From a virus, in the IMG/VR virus record IMGVR_UViG_3300032194_000137, positions 1 to 26,695 of that record: a stretch of 26,695 nucleotides of DNA; one strand, written 5' to 3'. Shown one piece after another: positions 2,290-26,695 of the stretch (within the stretch, counting starts at the first letter, position 1; each line of letters begins with the position of its first letter). The notes below the pieces were generated by a model. That model made no database searches and was not told the DNA's origin. It saw only the letters and a program-made list of their open reading frames with translations. The position numbers were made by a program, and so were the translations under genes.

Positions 2290-3096
2290 CTATATTAGTA
2301 GTTCAATGGTTACGTAACCAGCACCCTGATAACCACCCAAGCTGCTGCTATTTCCACCTCTGGTATTTACCTGATTAGATCCACCGTTGATAGATCCTCC
2401 ACCTCCGCCATGTTGACTGTAAGAAGACCACGCACCTGAGGAAGTTCCTCCAGTGTATCCACCAGCGCCACCAGGACCACTAAGGTTTCCGCCACCACCG
2501 CCGCCAAAACCACCACGGTTTCCTTGACCAGATGGTGTATAGCATCCATCACCAGGACCACCAACACCACCAGCAGTAAAAGATCTTCCACCAGTTGGTG
2601 TACCACAATGGTTGTATCCATTTGATCCATCGCCAAAATATCCACCACCGCCACCTCCCCAATAGGATCCATTGCCAGATCCACCATATCCAATAGTTGG
2701 AGTAGGTGCAGTGTAGTTACCTTGGCAAGTAGTAACACCACCTTGTGTAGTTGTTTGACCGTATGCATCGGTGATGTTTCTACTGCAAGAGTTGCCGTAG
2801 ACGTTTCCTGCAGAACCGCCACCACCACCAGCAACAATCATTGGAGTGCCCTGGGTGTAATTAACAACATAAGTCCCACCGCCACCACCTGCTTCATTAC
2901 CATGAGGAGAACCATACTGGTTGCCACCAGAACCAATAAGCATTTCAATTTGATCGCCAGCGAGAAGATCAAATTCTCCTCTTATTGTAGCACCCCAAAT
3001 ATCAGAAATGCCATAGTTGTTATCTTTACCACCTCTAGCACCACCAGCAGTAATTCTATAAGTTCCATCTGCTGGTACAGTCCAAAGTTGATATCC
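2290..3096 (-). repeat. Duplicated glycine-rich core, copy A
   Basis: Encodes residues 112-379 of the 379-aa protein and aligns without gaps to 536-1342, 268 codons in each. Similarity ends abruptly upstream of GYQLWTVP, where the two heads diverge. That places a module boundary at this point. Confidence 0.9.
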
Positions 3097-3429
3097 AGCA
3101 TTACTGCCCTGACTCAAATAACCTTCTTGCATAAAAGGTTGTCCAGCATAATTTGATTGCATTGTAGCACCAGAAGGACCTTCTGCACTACCTCTGCTTA
3201 CAAGTGGTTTGAATGTATATTGAGTAAACTCATATAGACTATCTGTATAAGGTCTATATGCATAAACCCAATCAACACCATCATAAAACATCAAGGCAAT
3301 GCCTTCAGTCTCGAAAATAAGACTACCCTTCTGCATACCTGTAAGGGCATCCTTTTGGGCAACATTGACAGTCTTCAGAACTAGTTCATCATCTGTAAGA
3401 GTTAATCTTCCTACATTTACAATGCCCAT
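2290..3429 (-). CDS. Glycine-rich adhesin-like protein, copy A, 379 aa
   Basis: Residues 1-111 form the N-terminal head, with a fibre-like segment around 35-57 (GSLIFETEGIALMFYDGVDW). Residues 112-379 are glycine-rich: GYQLWTVP, GARGG, WGATIRGEFDL, GNEAGGGGG, PMIVAGGGGG, then many Gly runs. Cys215, Cys235, Cys275 and Cys296 match the paralogue at 536-1663. The core fits an ALK/LTK-type Gly_rich fold and the polyglycine texture of phage tip adhesins. The head is only distantly similar to the paralogue's head, so the two may attach to different partners or sites. A perfect T4 consensus TATAAATA lies 30 bases upstream of the start. Receptor binding is inferred from texture and position; no enzymatic motif is seen. 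Confidence 0.9.
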   Translation of the reverse strand: MGIVNVGRLTLTDDELVLKTVNVAQKDALTGMQKGSLIFETEGIALMFYDGVDWVYAYRPYTDSLYEFTQYTFKPLVSRGSAEGPSGATMQSNYAGQPFMQEGYLSQGSNAGYQLWTVPADGTYRITAGGARGGKDNNYGISDIWGATIRGEFDLLAGDQIEMLIGSGGNQYGSPHGNEAGGGGGTYVVNYTQGTPMIVAGGGGGSAGNVYGNSCSRNITDAYGQTTTQGGVTTCQGNYTAPTPTIGYGGSGNGSYWGGGGGGYFGDGSNGYNHCGTPTGGRSFTAGGVGGPGDGCYTPSGQGNRGGFGGGGGGNLSGPGGAGGYTGGTSSGAWSSYSQHGGGGGSINGGSNQVNTRGGNSSSLGGYQGAGYVTIELLI

Positions 3430-12813: not shown

Positions 12814-15800
12814 TTATTTCTTGGAGATGTTGGACAGGAATGTAACGTTCACCGTTTGAGTATTTGTAACTTCACTAGTTAGAATAACATTTGCTCTAAC
12901 TTCATTAGCATCAGTTACCTCAAACGTAACATCAATTAGATTTGCACCAGTTGTGATATTGCCGTATTCTGTGTAGAATACATCTGTACCATCATCAAGA
13001 AGACCGAACTCAATAAATTCTTTATCGCCTGAGGAAACATTGTGGGCAACAATAGTAGTCTTTGCTGCTTCTTCAATTGTAGTATCGTAAATGATACTAT
13101 TGTTAGTATCAACGGTTCCTTTTTGTAGTGTGAATTTATCAGTACCAATTCTGGCTTGTAGCAATTCAAACTCTTTGAATTCATTGTCAAATACTTTGAC
13201 ACCATTGTATGTACCAGTTCCGAAACCAGTGTTGAAATATACATCACCAGTGTTGTCCAATCTAAAGATAGGATCAATTCTGATACCAGCGGACAAACCA
13301 ATATCAAAGAATTGCTTCGTTGAATATAAGAATGTCTTTGTGACATCAGTATTATCTAGTGTAGTAGCAGCATTGTCGATAGTGAGCATCGATGCTGTAA
13401 TTTCAAATTCATCACTAGTTACAGATCTGAGGGTGTCTACAGTAAAGAAGTCAAGAGATGTTGTTGTAAGTTGTACTGTATTGTTATTATCGTTATAGAA
13501 ATACAGAATGTTTTCATTAGATCCAGGAGATAGTTCTGGAATGATATATGTGTTTTGATCAACGTCTTTTACGCCACCAAGAGAACCCCAGTTTGCGCCA
13601 TTATAACCTTCAAATTGTGATGTTGTTTGACTATATCTAATAGAACCTTGAATTGGTACACCACGATCAGTATCTGGTCCAGCAGGAATGGCAAGAGTGG
13701 ATCCACAATCAATAACAACTTTCTTGCCAGCATTAGGTCTGATAACAAGATCACTAATGTCTGTAGTAATCTCATTATTAGCAAATCTGAGATCTCCATT
13801 GATAACCAGTGGGCATGGAGCAGTAGGTCCAACTCTAATTTCTTCAACGTCTTCAAAAGTCAGTGGAGCAACGGCAAGACCCCAGAATGCTAGAGTTGCC
13901 GTTCCACTTGGTTGAGTACCCGAAGTAAAAATTGGTTCATTTCCTTGAGTTCCTGTAACACCAGCAACTGTTACTTCATAAAGATTATTCTTCCACTTCA
14001 AATAATCTCCTACATTAACTAAAGTATTTGATAGAAACTCAGTAAATGCAGGAGCACTAGTGTTAGAAGATCTAATTCTCTTGTTAGACTCAAATGATAA
14101 TTGTGTCTTACTGAATTTTACGCTAACAACATCATCATTGACAAACCACAGAGTATTATCATTAGATCCAACAGTTTCTTCTGCTTTGATGTAAGTGTTG
14201 CCATCTAGGTCTCTTACACCACCAAGAGATGCCCAAGATCCTGTGGAAGTTCTATATCCCTCATATTGGTCGGTTGATGTATTGAATCTAATAGAACCAT
14301 CTAGTGCAACACCAGCTCCTGGTCTTTCGAGAGTCGTTCCTTTTGGAATAATTAGTGATGATGTTGAATCAATCTTAGTTTGCTTGCCAGAGAATGGAGT
14401 TAGCAATAAATCAGAATTACTATCAACAATAGAGATATTGTTATCGGTAATTCTCAGTTTATCATTAGAGTTGAAATACGTTGTGGTTTTGATATTACCA
14501 CTAGTAACAAGATTACCAGTTGTTGCATTTACAGATGCAAGATCATTGACATTGAGATTGCCAAGTGTTTTTAGAGACGAAGAGTTTACTGTAATTGCGC
14601 CAGTTTCCTGGTAAATTGTATCAGTCTCTACTCTATTTGTAGCAATTATATCACTCGAAGTAACGGAAGTAGAAGCAGTTACTGTTGTAGAATCTACAAT
14701 TGGAGACTCTAGTTCTGCAATTGTTACTTTTCCAGATTCGATATCAGCAAATACTGTATTTGAAGTTGAAATAGTTCCAACAACAAAAGATGCATCACTA
14801 CCAAAAACTTTAGGGTTATTTGGATCTATGGTTATTTGATATTCTTCATTATCAAATCCGCCTTCATTTTCGTGTCCAACTGCACTTACATTACAATAGT
14901 AAAATAAATTAGGGGTGGTTTCTCTAACAAGAATTTCTAAGTAATCATCTGTTCTAACAACAGAATCTGTATACTCTGCACCTCTAAAGTCAGCTACGAT
15001 TGCATTTGTAACGGTAGCATCTTGTGATACTCTTAGAGAAGTGCCATCGATAATTTCTACAACAAACAAATTACTAACAGGAAGACCCAAACCTTGTGTT
15101 ACAGTAACTTCCATTCCAACACCAATTCCAGATGTGCTGGTAACTGTAACGATATCAGATCCTTGAGTAGTATTACCACTAACATTCAAAACTTGAGATG
15201 GAGAATACTTTCCATCTGGGAATTTACTGAGAGCAAAAATATGACTACTAAGAGAACTGTCAGTAAGATCAAATCTATATGTGCTTCCAACATATAATGT
15301 TATTGATGGTTCTAGAGATCCGTCAATGGCAAAACGGTATGTATTAGCAACACTGCTTACTGTATATGTTGTTGGTGATCCAGAAACAACAATACTTCCA
15401 GCAGTAAGAGTAGTTGACTCTACCAATAAGTAATCAATTTGACCACCATTTGTTTTGACAAGTGCGACACGATTGCCATCTCCAGTGTCAGTATCCATCA
15501 AAACATTATCATCAACACTGATAGCTCCAGCAGAAACACCAGACATGTTCAGTCTTTGATATGTTCCTGCAGTAACAGTGAAAAGTTCTGGTTGTACCAG
15601 TAAGCTGTTTTGTACAGTTAGAGAATCTAATACTTCATAACCATTACCAGGATTATTGATTGAAAGGGTTTCAATCTCTCCCAAATTATCAATTCTATAT
15701 GAGAACTGTACTGATGCATCTCCAAACTCAGGAGAAAATGTTAGAGTTACTGCACCAGGGAAAGATGAGTCGTTTGATAAAGTAACAGTATTCGTGTCAG

Positions 15801-17646
15801 TGTCAACTGAAGACACTGTTGTACCAGCTGGAAGTTGTCCCGTTCCAGAAGAAACAGTTACAACCATACCTTCAGTAATGTTAGTCGTAGAAGATACTAC
15901 GACTTCATCAAATGGATCTAGATTTCTAAATGATAGAGTTGCTGCTCCATCACCATCTGGAGCTGTGCTGAGTGTAATTGTAGTTCCTGAAACATTAGAA
16001 ACTGTAGTCGCTGGTGCTAGTAATCCTGTGCTACCTGCCTCAGCAAAAACTGTCATGCCGATAGTGATTCCAGTAGAATCTGCAACTGTGATATTTGTCG
16101 ATGCTGTACTGAGAGTCGTAGCTACACCAGTAACCTCACCATTTAGTGTTCCAGTAATTCCTGTAATACTAGATGGTAAAGTTAGAACATCATTGACTTG
16201 ATATCCAGTTCCTTTCTGAATAAAAGTTAGATTTGTTACACTAGATGGATTGTTTGTGATTGTAAATTGGAATCCAGAACCACCAACATTACCCAAATCT
16301 GCTGTGTCAATAGTTAGGACATCTCCTGTTTCATATCCAGATCCTTGAGTTACAAACTGAACAGAATCTACAACACCAGAATATGTAAATGTTCCTAGAG
16401 TATACTCAAATCCAGCACCAGATCCAATATTAGATGGAGCAAGTGTTAGAGTGTCATTTGGTTTGTATCCAGTTCCTTGTGTGGTAAAATCTAAAGATAT
16501 TACATTTCCAGAAGCATTTACTTCAACATCTGCAAAAGCACCAAAACCATGATTTCCTACCGCTCCAGTAGAAATAGTAATTGCAGCACCCATTCCGTCA
16601 TGAACAGAACAATTATATTTGATGTTTCCAGTTGGAGCATCGGGTGAAATAATAAAGTCTACAAATGCACCAGGATCTCCTGCAACACCACCAGTCTGAA
16701 TAGAATACAAGGATGGATCTAAAATGCTACCATTAGTCTCTTGGAAAACTAGTGGATGACCGAGCATTGATGCATCGGAAATATCAAAGCGATACGTGTT
16801 TCCTCTAACCATAGTTAGAGCTTGCTGTACATTTCCGTTTATAGAATATACATTATTTGGAGGTGGTGTACCAGGATTTGATACAGAAGTAACAGTGTAT
16901 GTTGTAACTGGTACGTTGTATACTGGAATGTTGGTATATGTATTTTCAGTATACCCAGAACCAGAATTGGTAATACTACCACTGTATACAACAGAACCTG
17001 TTACAATGACATTTGCAGTTGCATTAGAACCAGATCCACTAACAGTTACTACAGGAACACCTTGATAGTTTCCTGGTAGATATGCGCTACCAGTATTTGT
17101 AATATCTCCAGCAATATCTTCTACATCGAAAGATACTTCAGCTCCTGTACCATTACCACCGATAAGAAGAATGTTACTATAATTGCCTGCTAAGTAACCC
17201 TCACCATCTTCCGTGATTGTTCCTGTAAAAGCTGTTACGTTGATATCAGTAGTAAGACCTTCACCAGTACCACCATTTAGTGGAACATTTGAATAAAATC
17301 CAGCATCATAATTTGTACCAGCATTCTCAAGTACAAGAGAAGCAACAATATCTCTCTGTAGTGCTAGATCTCTAAAAGAAACAATGGTTGATTGTCCAAT
17401 GTTGAATAGTTTCTTATCATCCGAAACATATCCAATGACGCCATTGTTTGCTCTGAAAATACCTAGTCCTGGTTCATTCTCAAATGCTAACGATGGTAGT
17501 AATTTTGTACCATCACCAATCTTTAAGTTTCCAGTAGCAAGATCACTACCACCAGCAGTAATCGAGAACAACTGATTGCTAATATCATTGATTTTATTCC
17601 TTTGAACCTCAAAGGTATCTGTTCTAGCGACTTGAATTGCTGGCAT
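12814..17646 (-). CDS. Fibre-like virion protein with cupredoxin-like domain, 1610 aa
   Basis: N-terminal domain starting MPAIQVARTDTFEVQRNKIN (1-100). Then come four GxGY/GNYxN beta repeats (about 103-240); a cupredoxin-like domain (249-359) with His297, Cys346, His349 and Met352; three more GxGY repeats (about 385-495) and another near 665; two GMxV turn repeats (about 508-570 and 580-638); and a second cupredoxin-like region (760-940) split by a third GMxV repeat (821-885), keeping His802, Cys918 and His924. A segment rich in short repeats follows. After it lie two copies of an IPxG...GSIRxN/S...EGYxG...SLGGVxDxDxNTYI module (1095-1180 and 1314-1395) and a beta-rich C-terminus. The gene overlaps the end of the 71-aa gene by 23 bases. 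A tail or baseplate-associated fibre is the best reading; copper binding is a sequence inference only. Confidence 0.92.
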   Translation of the reverse strand: MPAIQVARTDTFEVQRNKINDISNQLFSITAGGSDLATGNLKIGDGTKLLPSLAFENEPGLGIFRANNGVIGYVSDDKKLFNIGQSTIVSFRDLALQRDIVASLVLENAGTNYDAGFYSNVPLNGGTGEGLTTDINVTAFTGTITEDGEGYLAGNYSNILLIGGNGTGAEVSFDVEDIAGDITNTGSAYLPGNYQGVPVVTVSGSGSNATANVIVTGSVVYSGSITNSGSGYTENTYTNIPVYNVPVTTYTVTSVSNPGTPPPNNVYSINGNVQQALTMVRGNTYRFDISDASMLGHPLVFQETNGSILDPSLYSIQTGGVAGDPGAFVDFIISPDAPTGNIKYNCSVHDGMGAAITISTGAVGNHGFGAFADVEVNASGNVISLDFTTQGTGYKPNDTLTLAPSNIGSGAGFEYTLGTFTYSGVVDSVQFVTQGSGYETGDVLTIDTADLGNVGGSGFQFTITNNPSSVTNLTFIQKGTGYQVNDVLTLPSSITGITGTLNGEVTGVATTLSTASTNITVADSTGITIGMTVFAEAGSTGLLAPATTVSNVSGTTITLSTAPDGDGAATLSFRNLDPFDEVVVSSTTNITEGMVVTVSSGTGQLPAGTTVSSVDTDTNTVTLSNDSSFPGAVTLTFSPEFGDASVQFSYRIDNLGEIETLSINNPGNGYEVLDSLTVQNSLLVQPELFTVTAGTYQRLNMSGVSAGAISVDDNVLMDTDTGDGNRVALVKTNGGQIDYLLVESTTLTAGSIVVSGSPTTYTVSSVANTYRFAIDGSLEPSITLYVGSTYRFDLTDSSLSSHIFALSKFPDGKYSPSQVLNVSGNTTQGSDIVTVTSTSGIGVGMEVTVTQGLGLPVSNLFVVEIIDGTSLRVSQDATVTNAIVADFRGAEYTDSVVRTDDYLEILVRETTPNLFYYCNVSAVGHENEGGFDNEEYQITIDPNNPKVFGSDASFVVGTISTSNTVFADIESGKVTIAELESPIVDSTTVTASTSVTSSDIIATNRVETDTIYQETGAITVNSSSLKTLGNLNVNDLASVNATTGNLVTSGNIKTTTYFNSNDKLRITDNNISIVDSNSDLLLTPFSGKQTKIDSTSSLIIPKGTTLERPGAGVALDGSIRFNTSTDQYEGYRTSTGSWASLGGVRDLDGNTYIKAEETVGSNDNTLWFVNDDVVSVKFSKTQLSFESNKRIRSSNTSAPAFTEFLSNTLVNVGDYLKWKNNLYEVTVAGVTGTQGNEPIFTSGTQPSGTATLAFWGLAVAPLTFEDVEEIRVGPTAPCPLVINGDLRFANNEITTDISDLVIRPNAGKKVVIDCGSTLAIPAGPDTDRGVPIQGSIRYSQTTSQFEGYNGANWGSLGGVKDVDQNTYIIPELSPGSNENILYFYNDNNNTVQLTTTSLDFFTVDTLRSVTSDEFEITASMLTIDNAATTLDNTDVTKTFLYSTKQFFDIGLSAGIRIDPIFRLDNTGDVYFNTGFGTGTYNGVKVFDNEFKEFELLQARIGTDKFTLQKGTVDTNNSIIYDTTIEEAAKTTIVAHNVSSGDKEFIEFGLLDDGTDVFYTEYGNITTGANLIDVTFEVTDANEVRANVILTSEVTNTQTVNVTFLSNISKK
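14827..15372 (-). other. Split, degenerate cupredoxin-like region
   Basis: Residues about 759-940 of the 1610-aa protein. The opening (TYTVSS, then STYRFDLTDSSLSSHIFAL) parallels the first cupredoxin-like domain, and the closing strand has LFYYCNVSAVGHE. A GMxV turn repeat of about 65 residues interrupts it. His802, Cys918 and His924 are present, but the Cys-to-His spacing is five residues and no Met follows, so a type-1 copper site is unlikely to be intact. Confidence 0.55.
16570..16902 (-). other. Cupredoxin-like domain
   Basis: Residues 249-359 of the 1610-aa protein. An upstream strand with GNTYRFDISDASMLGHPLVF supplies His297, and the last hairpin YNCSVHDGMG supplies Cys346, His349 and Met352. 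The His...Cys-x2-His-x2-Met order matches the ligand order of plastocyanin-type type-1 copper proteins, where the last spacing is usually four residues. Similar GHPL...YxCxxHxGMG domains are, from memory, frequent in marine phage proteins. Fold assignment is by motif only. Confidence 0.6.
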
Positions 17647-26146: not shown

Positions 26147-26695
26147 TCAGAATTCAATAACGAGTTTGATGTCTTCAATCTGGTCAGGAGCACGAGTGAT
26201 TAGACGACGGTTCTCAATGTAGATAACGTCACCTGAGTTGTTCTCAATCTCAGGAGCTGCTAGACCGTTGGTGAAGGTTGAACCTAGGAGAGTGTTGCTA
26301 TATCCAGTGTCAACGTTGCCAGAAGCAGCAGACTGTACACCAGAAATTGCGTTAGCACCGTTGCTCTCGAATGCTCTTACAACACCTTGATCAGTGTGAG
26401 CATCATTGGTTTGGATATACTTGAGAACACCAGCGGTAGTTGAACCACTGTCGAGTGTCCAAGAAACAACTGTGCCGTATGCAGTACCACCAGATACAGT
26501 CTGAGAAATTGCTTCGTCAGGAATGTAATCAGCAGATGCACCAGTGATCTTGACTGCCTTGAGACCCGATAGAGTATCAGAGGTTGCGAAAGTTGTGGTT
26601 CCCCAGTTGAATGGATCCTTGATAATACCGATACGACGGAAGTCGTTATCTACAGGGAAGTCACCAGAACCTTCTGCGTAGGTTAGGCGAATGTT
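26147..26695 (-). CDS. gp8: Baseplate wedge protein gp8, C-terminal part (partial)
   Basis: The reading frame is open to the right edge, so the N-terminus is outside the window; 182 residues are visible, from NIRLTYAEGSGDF to the end. The last residues, GDVIYIENRRLITRAPDQ then IEDIKLVIEF, match the T4 gp8 ending GEMIYMENRPPIIMAMDQ then TEEINILFTF. The segment FRRIGIIKDPFNWG matches T4 FRQISIITNPLEAK. Gp8 is a wedge component of the contractile-tail baseplate. Between these two conserved segments T4 has roughly 30 residues, while this protein has about 120, including a beta-rich stretch with DEAISQTVSGGTAYGTVVSW. The TGA stop is at 26149-26147. Assignment is by recall of the T4 sequence, not a search. 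Confidence 0.88.
   Translation of the reverse strand, partial: NIRLTYAEGSGDFPVDNDFRRIGIIKDPFNWGTTTFATSDTLSGLKAVKITGASADYIPDEAISQTVSGGTAYGTVVSWTLDSGSTTAGVLKYIQTNDAHTDQGVVRAFESNGANAISGVQSAASGNVDTGYSNTLLGSTFTNGLAAPEIENNSGDVIYIENRRLITRAPDQIEDIKLVIEF

Follow-up and report, generated by a model that had tools for sequence, protein, structure and literature searches.

A virion structural protein of a marine cyanophage contains a domain, here called D1, that is likely, on sequence comparison and structure prediction, to be of the cupredoxin type, with a metal site retained by selection, most likely for copper, and to be used as a module of the phage tail. The four predicted ligands are under clear selection, as shown by their conservation and by their joint loss in relatives. 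We are fairly confident that the predicted site would bind metal of some kind, and copper is probably the metal bound.

A structural protein encoded in the baseplate region

The window (the whole stretch of DNA analysed, 26,695 bases) is a record representing a fragment of a T4-like marine cyanophage genome. The protein under study and its neighbours are as follows.

12814..17646, minus strand, virion structural protein of 1610 aa with both cupredoxin-like domains (PHROG 6005, gene order)
26147-26695, neighbour, baseplate wedge protein (PHROG 438)
Neighbour, 2733-aa protein (DUF4815, PHROG 358)
Neighbour, 71-aa ORF
Neighbour, 166-aa virion structural protein (PHROG 5449)
Neighbour, 2933-aa protein

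The 1610-aa protein matches PHROG 6005, 'virion structural protein', with E 0, the best stretch being its C-terminal half. It is surrounded by baseplate-region genes and annotated as a virion structural protein; its identity as a fibre is putative. The annotations of cyanophages Syn1 (Syn1_097 to 101) and ACG-2014h show the same gene order, and the closest whole-length relatives among named phages (S-H9-1, S-CAM4, ACG-2014j, ACG-2014h and S-H9-2) share 42-48% identity with it. Scanned over its full length, the protein matched no Pfam or NCBIfam model. Weak Pfam matches seen in the analysis (Head_fiber_dimeric, E 7.5e-4; At5g54830-like; DUF4850) were under the cut-off. Cys (4) and His (6) are scarce in the protein as a whole, and six of these ten residues fall in the sites of D1 and of a second domain, D2, described below.

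Predicted ligand residues of D1 and their spacing

D1 and its predicted ligands occupy the following positions.

16564..16902, minus strand, D1, cupredoxin-like domain, residues 249-361 (AlphaFold2, profile-profile alignment with PF00127 proteins)
16756..16758, minus strand, codon of His297, first predicted ligand, in the loop preceding domain strand 51-55 (AlphaFold2, conservation)
16591..16611, minus strand, predicted ligand loop C346-S-V-H349-D-G-M352, joining the last two strands (AlphaFold2, conservation)
16609-16611, minus strand, codon of Cys346
16600-16602, minus strand, codon of His349
16591-16593, minus strand, codon of Met352

An earlier note, made from the sequence alone, had pointed to His297, Cys346, His349 and Met352 as a plastocyanin-like copper ligand set. 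The four residues are indeed where it placed them, with YNCSVHDGMG following GHPLVF 49 residues on, and the proposed likeness to a type-1 copper site is supported by the predicted cupredoxin-type fold and by profile-profile alignment with copper proteins. The loop type, however, has to be corrected. The two-residue spacing between His and Met was rightly seen to differ from the four residues of plastocyanin, but it is no anomaly, since amicyanins in the PDB read YHC-x2-H-x2-M. The loop therefore departs from plastocyanin only and stays within known copper loops; going by PDB sequences, C-x2-H-x2-M is the amicyanin type. Judged by the loop, D1 falls outside plastocyanin (Cys-x2-His-x4-Met) and within amicyanin (Cys-x2-His-x2-Met; compare amicyanin YHCTAHPFM).

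The pattern H-x(30-70)-C-x2-H-x(2-4)-M occurs once in the 1610-aa protein and never in 20,000 shuffled versions of it; a chance ligand pattern was rejected on this ground. Each domain has a single Cys, so a disulphide cannot explain conservation of this residue and was likewise discarded. A zinc finger was rejected because the fold is wrong and the Met is kept.

Predicted fold and relation to copper proteins

AlphaFold2, supplied with the phage alignment, predicts D1 as a nine-strand sandwich (pLDDT 95.1, pTM 0.87). In this model, H49 (domain numbering) precedes strand 51-55, C98 ends strand 92-98, and H101 and M104 precede the last strand, 107-111. The ligands thus occupy the cupredoxin layout in the predicted fold.

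Foldseek comparison of D1 with the PDB returned the cupredoxin domain of Hyphomicrobium denitrificans nitrite reductase with probability 1.00; rusticyanin and plastocyanin also matched. No match reached E <= 1e-3, and Ig domains were among the best E-values. Phage tails are rich in Ig-like domains, and both facts would suit an Ig-like or other beta-sandwich that bears the ligand pattern by coincidence. We regard such a coincidence as highly improbable and already disfavoured: by TM the best cupredoxins (0.50-0.57, plastocyanin 0.5) are ahead of the interleaved Ig domains (about 0.35-0.4), the motif is absent from all shuffles, the same arrangement recurs in a second domain of the protein, and profiles match copper proteins with the ligands in register.

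The last point rests on a wider family of relatives, which have a different body sequence (GHPLRFST...YTTGVTTNGTPG...LYYYCTNHSGMGG) and possess the four ligands in every copy displayed. With hhalign, the wide-family profile was compared with profiles of PF00127 proteins (relatives of the L133 bacterium; cyanophage petE). The probability was 93.5-95, with E 2e-7 to 4e-8 for one comparison, and first His, Cys, second His and Met were all in register. The narrow D1 alignment reached probability 80 over the Cys loop only, while among the controls the D2 insert scored 1.1 and 30 column-shuffled profiles no more than 1.5.

Direct searches were less productive. D1 reaches no Pfam model, has no score against PF00127 (Copper-bind) and so fails the Pfam gathering cut-off, and no PF00127 match was found elsewhere in the window; we therefore file D1 neither as a PF00127 member nor as a plastocyanin. 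A PDB sequence search with D1 returned plastocyanin only, at E 0.1-1, plus noise, which is too weak on its own. Amicyanins were absent from the PDB sequence matches of both D1 and its profile. Consequently, the copper loop of D1 may function as that of amicyanin does, but D1 is not classed as an amicyanin.

Likeness to amicyanin, a blue copper protein, extends to the beta-sandwich, to a His followed by Cys-x2-His-x2-Met between the last two strands, and to a Y-x-C motif ahead of the loop (YHC in amicyanin, YNC in D1). Amicyanin, however, is a free electron-transfer protein, whereas D1 is embedded in a virion protein of 1610 aa, has 48 residues between first His and Cys, and gives no significant direct sequence match. 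With plastocyanin, including cyanophage petE, D1 shares the kinds and order of ligands and a profile-profile match, but plastocyanin is a soluble photosynthetic electron carrier and D1 a part of a virion protein. True petE is encoded elsewhere in the related phages Syn1, Syn33 and ACG-2014h. A photosynthetic copper role as for petE was rejected, D1 being situated inside a virion protein. The best cupredoxin fold matches of D1 and D2, namely the N-terminal cupredoxin domain of H. denitrificans nitrite reductase, rusticyanin and AcoP, are redox proteins, and these matches reach only E 5e-3 to 2e-2.

Among viral models, Foldseek matched D1 to 53 proteins at E <= 1e-3, the named ones being mainly cyanophage tail-fibre and structural proteins. 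The D1 fold is also matched, in BFVD, by short 'beta-sandwich proteins' of pithovirus- and marseillevirus-like giant viruses (E 4e-6 to 5e-4).

Conservation of the D1 site

Relatives of D1 were collected in two IMG/VR scans, in the second of which the ligand stretch was excluded from the search pattern. They gave 85 distinct near-complete copies; two that run into a contig edge were left out and 83 scored. The complete H-C-H-M set is present in 81 of them; frequent loss of Cys or His among homologues, which the earlier note had named as the finding that would speak against a site, is absent. One exception (L021) has lost both His residues, to Tyr and Asp, and the other (L078) has lost all four ligands, with D, S, T and A in their places. 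Clustering at 80% identity gave 50 clusters (median pairwise identity 48%), in which the ligands are still 96-98% kept (first His in 48/50; Cys 98%, second His 96%, Met 98%). Several non-ligand columns (Y, F, S, G, Y) are conserved to the same level. Conservation alone is therefore no proof of a metal site; it is the joint losses that single one out.

A second, split domain in the same protein

Another site, made up of H802, C918, H925 and E928, had escaped the earlier note. It belongs to D2, the parts of which are listed here.

14821..15372, minus strand, D2, cupredoxin-like domain, residues about 759-942, split by an insert (AlphaFold2, D1 profile match, Foldseek)
15241..15243, minus strand, codon of His802, first ligand position of D2
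14863..14895, minus strand, D2 ligand loop C918-x6-H925-x2-E928, with Glu in place of the Met of D1
14983..15186, minus strand, D2 insert of about 68 residues (821-888), separating the D2 halves (comparison with D1 and with uninserted relatives)

D2 is predicted by AlphaFold2 with pLDDT 94.7 and pTM 0.88. Without the insert it matches the D1 profile with probability 98.9 (E 1.7e-17), and in the PDB its 13 top-ranked Foldseek matches, with E 5e-3 to 2e-2, are without exception cupredoxin proteins. Compared with copper proteins on its own, the insert shows no similarity (probability 1.1).

D2 could be judged in 58 copies. Cys is found in 41 of these, always accompanied by the second His, which in L052 occupies a shifted position. 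The remaining 17 have lost both Cys and second His, and ten of these lack the first His as well. Fisher tests on D2 clusters, which are not fully independent, gave p 2e-9 for Cys versus second His and 6e-6 for first His versus Cys. The D2 tree implies about six losses (5-6 in bootstrap; strongly supported branches force at least three). Two clades (seven rows, four clusters) retain the first His after loss of Cys and second His. D2 is thus a diverged copy of the D1 design, the site of which is dispensable in several lineages. Retention or loss of these residues as a group indicates that they share a single ligand, as a metal would be.

The joint losses also bear on the idea that both domains are merely a cupredoxin-derived scaffold, in which His, Cys, His and Met are kept for loop packing and the virion carries no bound metal. 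Many non-ligand columns are equally conserved, and ligand-less lineages occur in D1 (L021, L078) as well as in D2 (17/58), so that the fold needs no metal. Yet all-or-nothing loss of Cys and second His, mostly together with the first, is what a shared metal predicts; the lost residues are replaced by unrelated ones (D, S, T, A, F, Y), and packing gives no obvious need for one Cys, two His and one Met at the four places where cupredoxins have their ligands. We consider the metal-free scaffold unlikely and favour a selected metal site.

The D2 loop is mostly C-x5/6-H-x2-Glu, and C-x2-H forms occur too. At the axial position, Glu is found in 30 of the 41 intact copies and Met in ten. Two near-identical D2 domains (L096:6780-7379 and L041:5801-6379) differ by Glu versus Met in the axial place and constitute a natural test pair.

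Since D2 mostly has Glu for the axial Met, a different metal is possible there. That the natural metal is other than copper (zinc, iron, cobalt or nickel), at least in D2, seems to us improbable. The prevalence of H-C-H-E among intact D2 copies would fit it, as would the folding of the protein in a copper-poor cytosol. A precedent for iron exists in the tail fibres of T4, where gp37 holds iron at HxH sites, according to work cited in PMC11705849. Against another metal, Met is kept in 48 of 49 D1 clusters, Met ligands favour copper, and the D1 loop is a copper-protein loop. Copper thus remains our preferred metal.

Relatives in other tail proteins and in cells

The presence of a copper-type fold in a virion protein, suggested by the earlier note, is supported, but it is no curiosity of a single fibre; the domain belongs to a large phage family. 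Using tblastn, we found the domain in 48 phage records with D1 as query and in 326 with the C-terminal copy of Syn33 gp9. In cyanophages, gp9 is the annotated baseplate wedge tail-fibre connector, having Pfam T4_gp9_10_N at its N-terminus and a cupredoxin-like domain at its C-terminus, as in Syn33 (L135:9092-10312), S-SM1 (L211:286-1509) and P-SSM4 (L212:292-1521). D1 matches PHROG 677 (gp9) at positions 315-409 of 412 with E 7e-10. While gp9 has a C-terminal domain related to D1, it is about 410 aa long and carries T4_gp9_10_N, a Pfam match that the 1610-aa protein does not have. The motif H..C-x2-H-x2-M is kept in gp9 of S-SM1, P-SSM4, Syn33, S-RIM2, S-RIM8 and others.

Other carriers include tail-fibre proteins of the Pelagibacter phages EXVC032P, Mosig and HTVC028P, as well as Methylophilales phage Melnitz-3, P-SSM2, Bellamy, a virion protein of S-TIM5 and podovirus P-GSP1. 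At all 23 sampled loci, from 21 named phages, at least one copy has the His and the C-x2-H-x2/3-M loop.

In P-HM1 (L142) and ACG-2014h (L143), a cupredoxin-like domain is joined to a subtilase (Peptidase_S8) and scores slightly below the Copper-bind cut-off (16-21 bits against PF00127, cut-off 21.2). From its sequence, this fusion may be a secreted or virion protease carrying a copper-type domain.

A pattern-based scan of 84,980 bacterial and archaeal genomes yielded a single cellular relative, a Bacteroidetes FG-GAP surface protein. It is a large protein with FG-GAP and TIG repeats, in which the domain (L133:306-614) has its ligands intact. With one cellular relative only from this pattern-based scan, a cellular donor cannot be named.

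Possible role and significance

We propose that the domain is a module of a family which marine phages incorporate into their baseplate and tail-fibre proteins. The protein folds in the cytosol, a compartment from which cyanobacteria exclude copper, so that copper would be taken up after release, probably when the virion meets lysate or seawater. The metal might then pin the loops together, giving a compact and stable bead in the tail, and/or shape a surface facing the host or an adjacent tail protein; of these steps we are less sure. A metal-dependent role in attachment or tail function is conceivable but doubtful. Equally tentative is a broader picture in which each tail would bear several copper-loaded cupredoxin domains, conserved among cyanophages and the phages of Pelagibacter and Methylophilales and located where the tail fibre joins the baseplate (gp9), with copper binding or redox state controlling tail stability, fibre release or attachment. 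Electron transfer by D1 is possible in principle but very unlikely, and nothing in the data calls for it.

The open-access literature search found no paper linking cupredoxin to cyanophage structure, tail fibre or baseplate. Iron in phage tails is known; copper-protein domains in virions seem undescribed. The nearest precedent is iron in phage tails together with its proposed use in the ocean, as put forward in PMC11705849; there, the 'Ferrojan horse' idea of a metal-holding phage tail protein is proposed for marine phages too. The two systems differ in that T4 gp37 binds iron through paired His residues (HxH) of the fibre, whereas D1 has a predicted single-chain, Cys-containing site of copper type. 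What we claim as new is the conserved site, its joint loss, the split H-C-H-Glu variant and the spread through tail proteins; the fold may already be assigned in InterPro/Gene3D.

The domain occurs in several hundred cyanophage records, in proteins annotated to the machinery that meets the host, and gives a name to part of proteins whose present annotation is 'hypothetical', 'structural' or 'tail fiber'. The tails of marine phages may thus bear copper or a metal like it. Should copper-loaded tails be real, they would represent a new class of metallovirion and a new oceanic pool of strongly bound copper, and D2, which combines an H-C-H-Glu set with an inserted domain, would add a new type to the known cupredoxin sites.

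Further features of the window

Between D1 and D2 (15500-16520, minus strand), the protein contains several G-x-G-Y-x3-D-x-L-T repeats, for example GTGYKPNDTLTL, GSGYETGDVLTI and GTGYQVNDVLTL. Two further genes of the window, 536-1663 and 2290-3429 on the minus strand, each match PHROG 22713 (unknown function) and hence look like paralogues.
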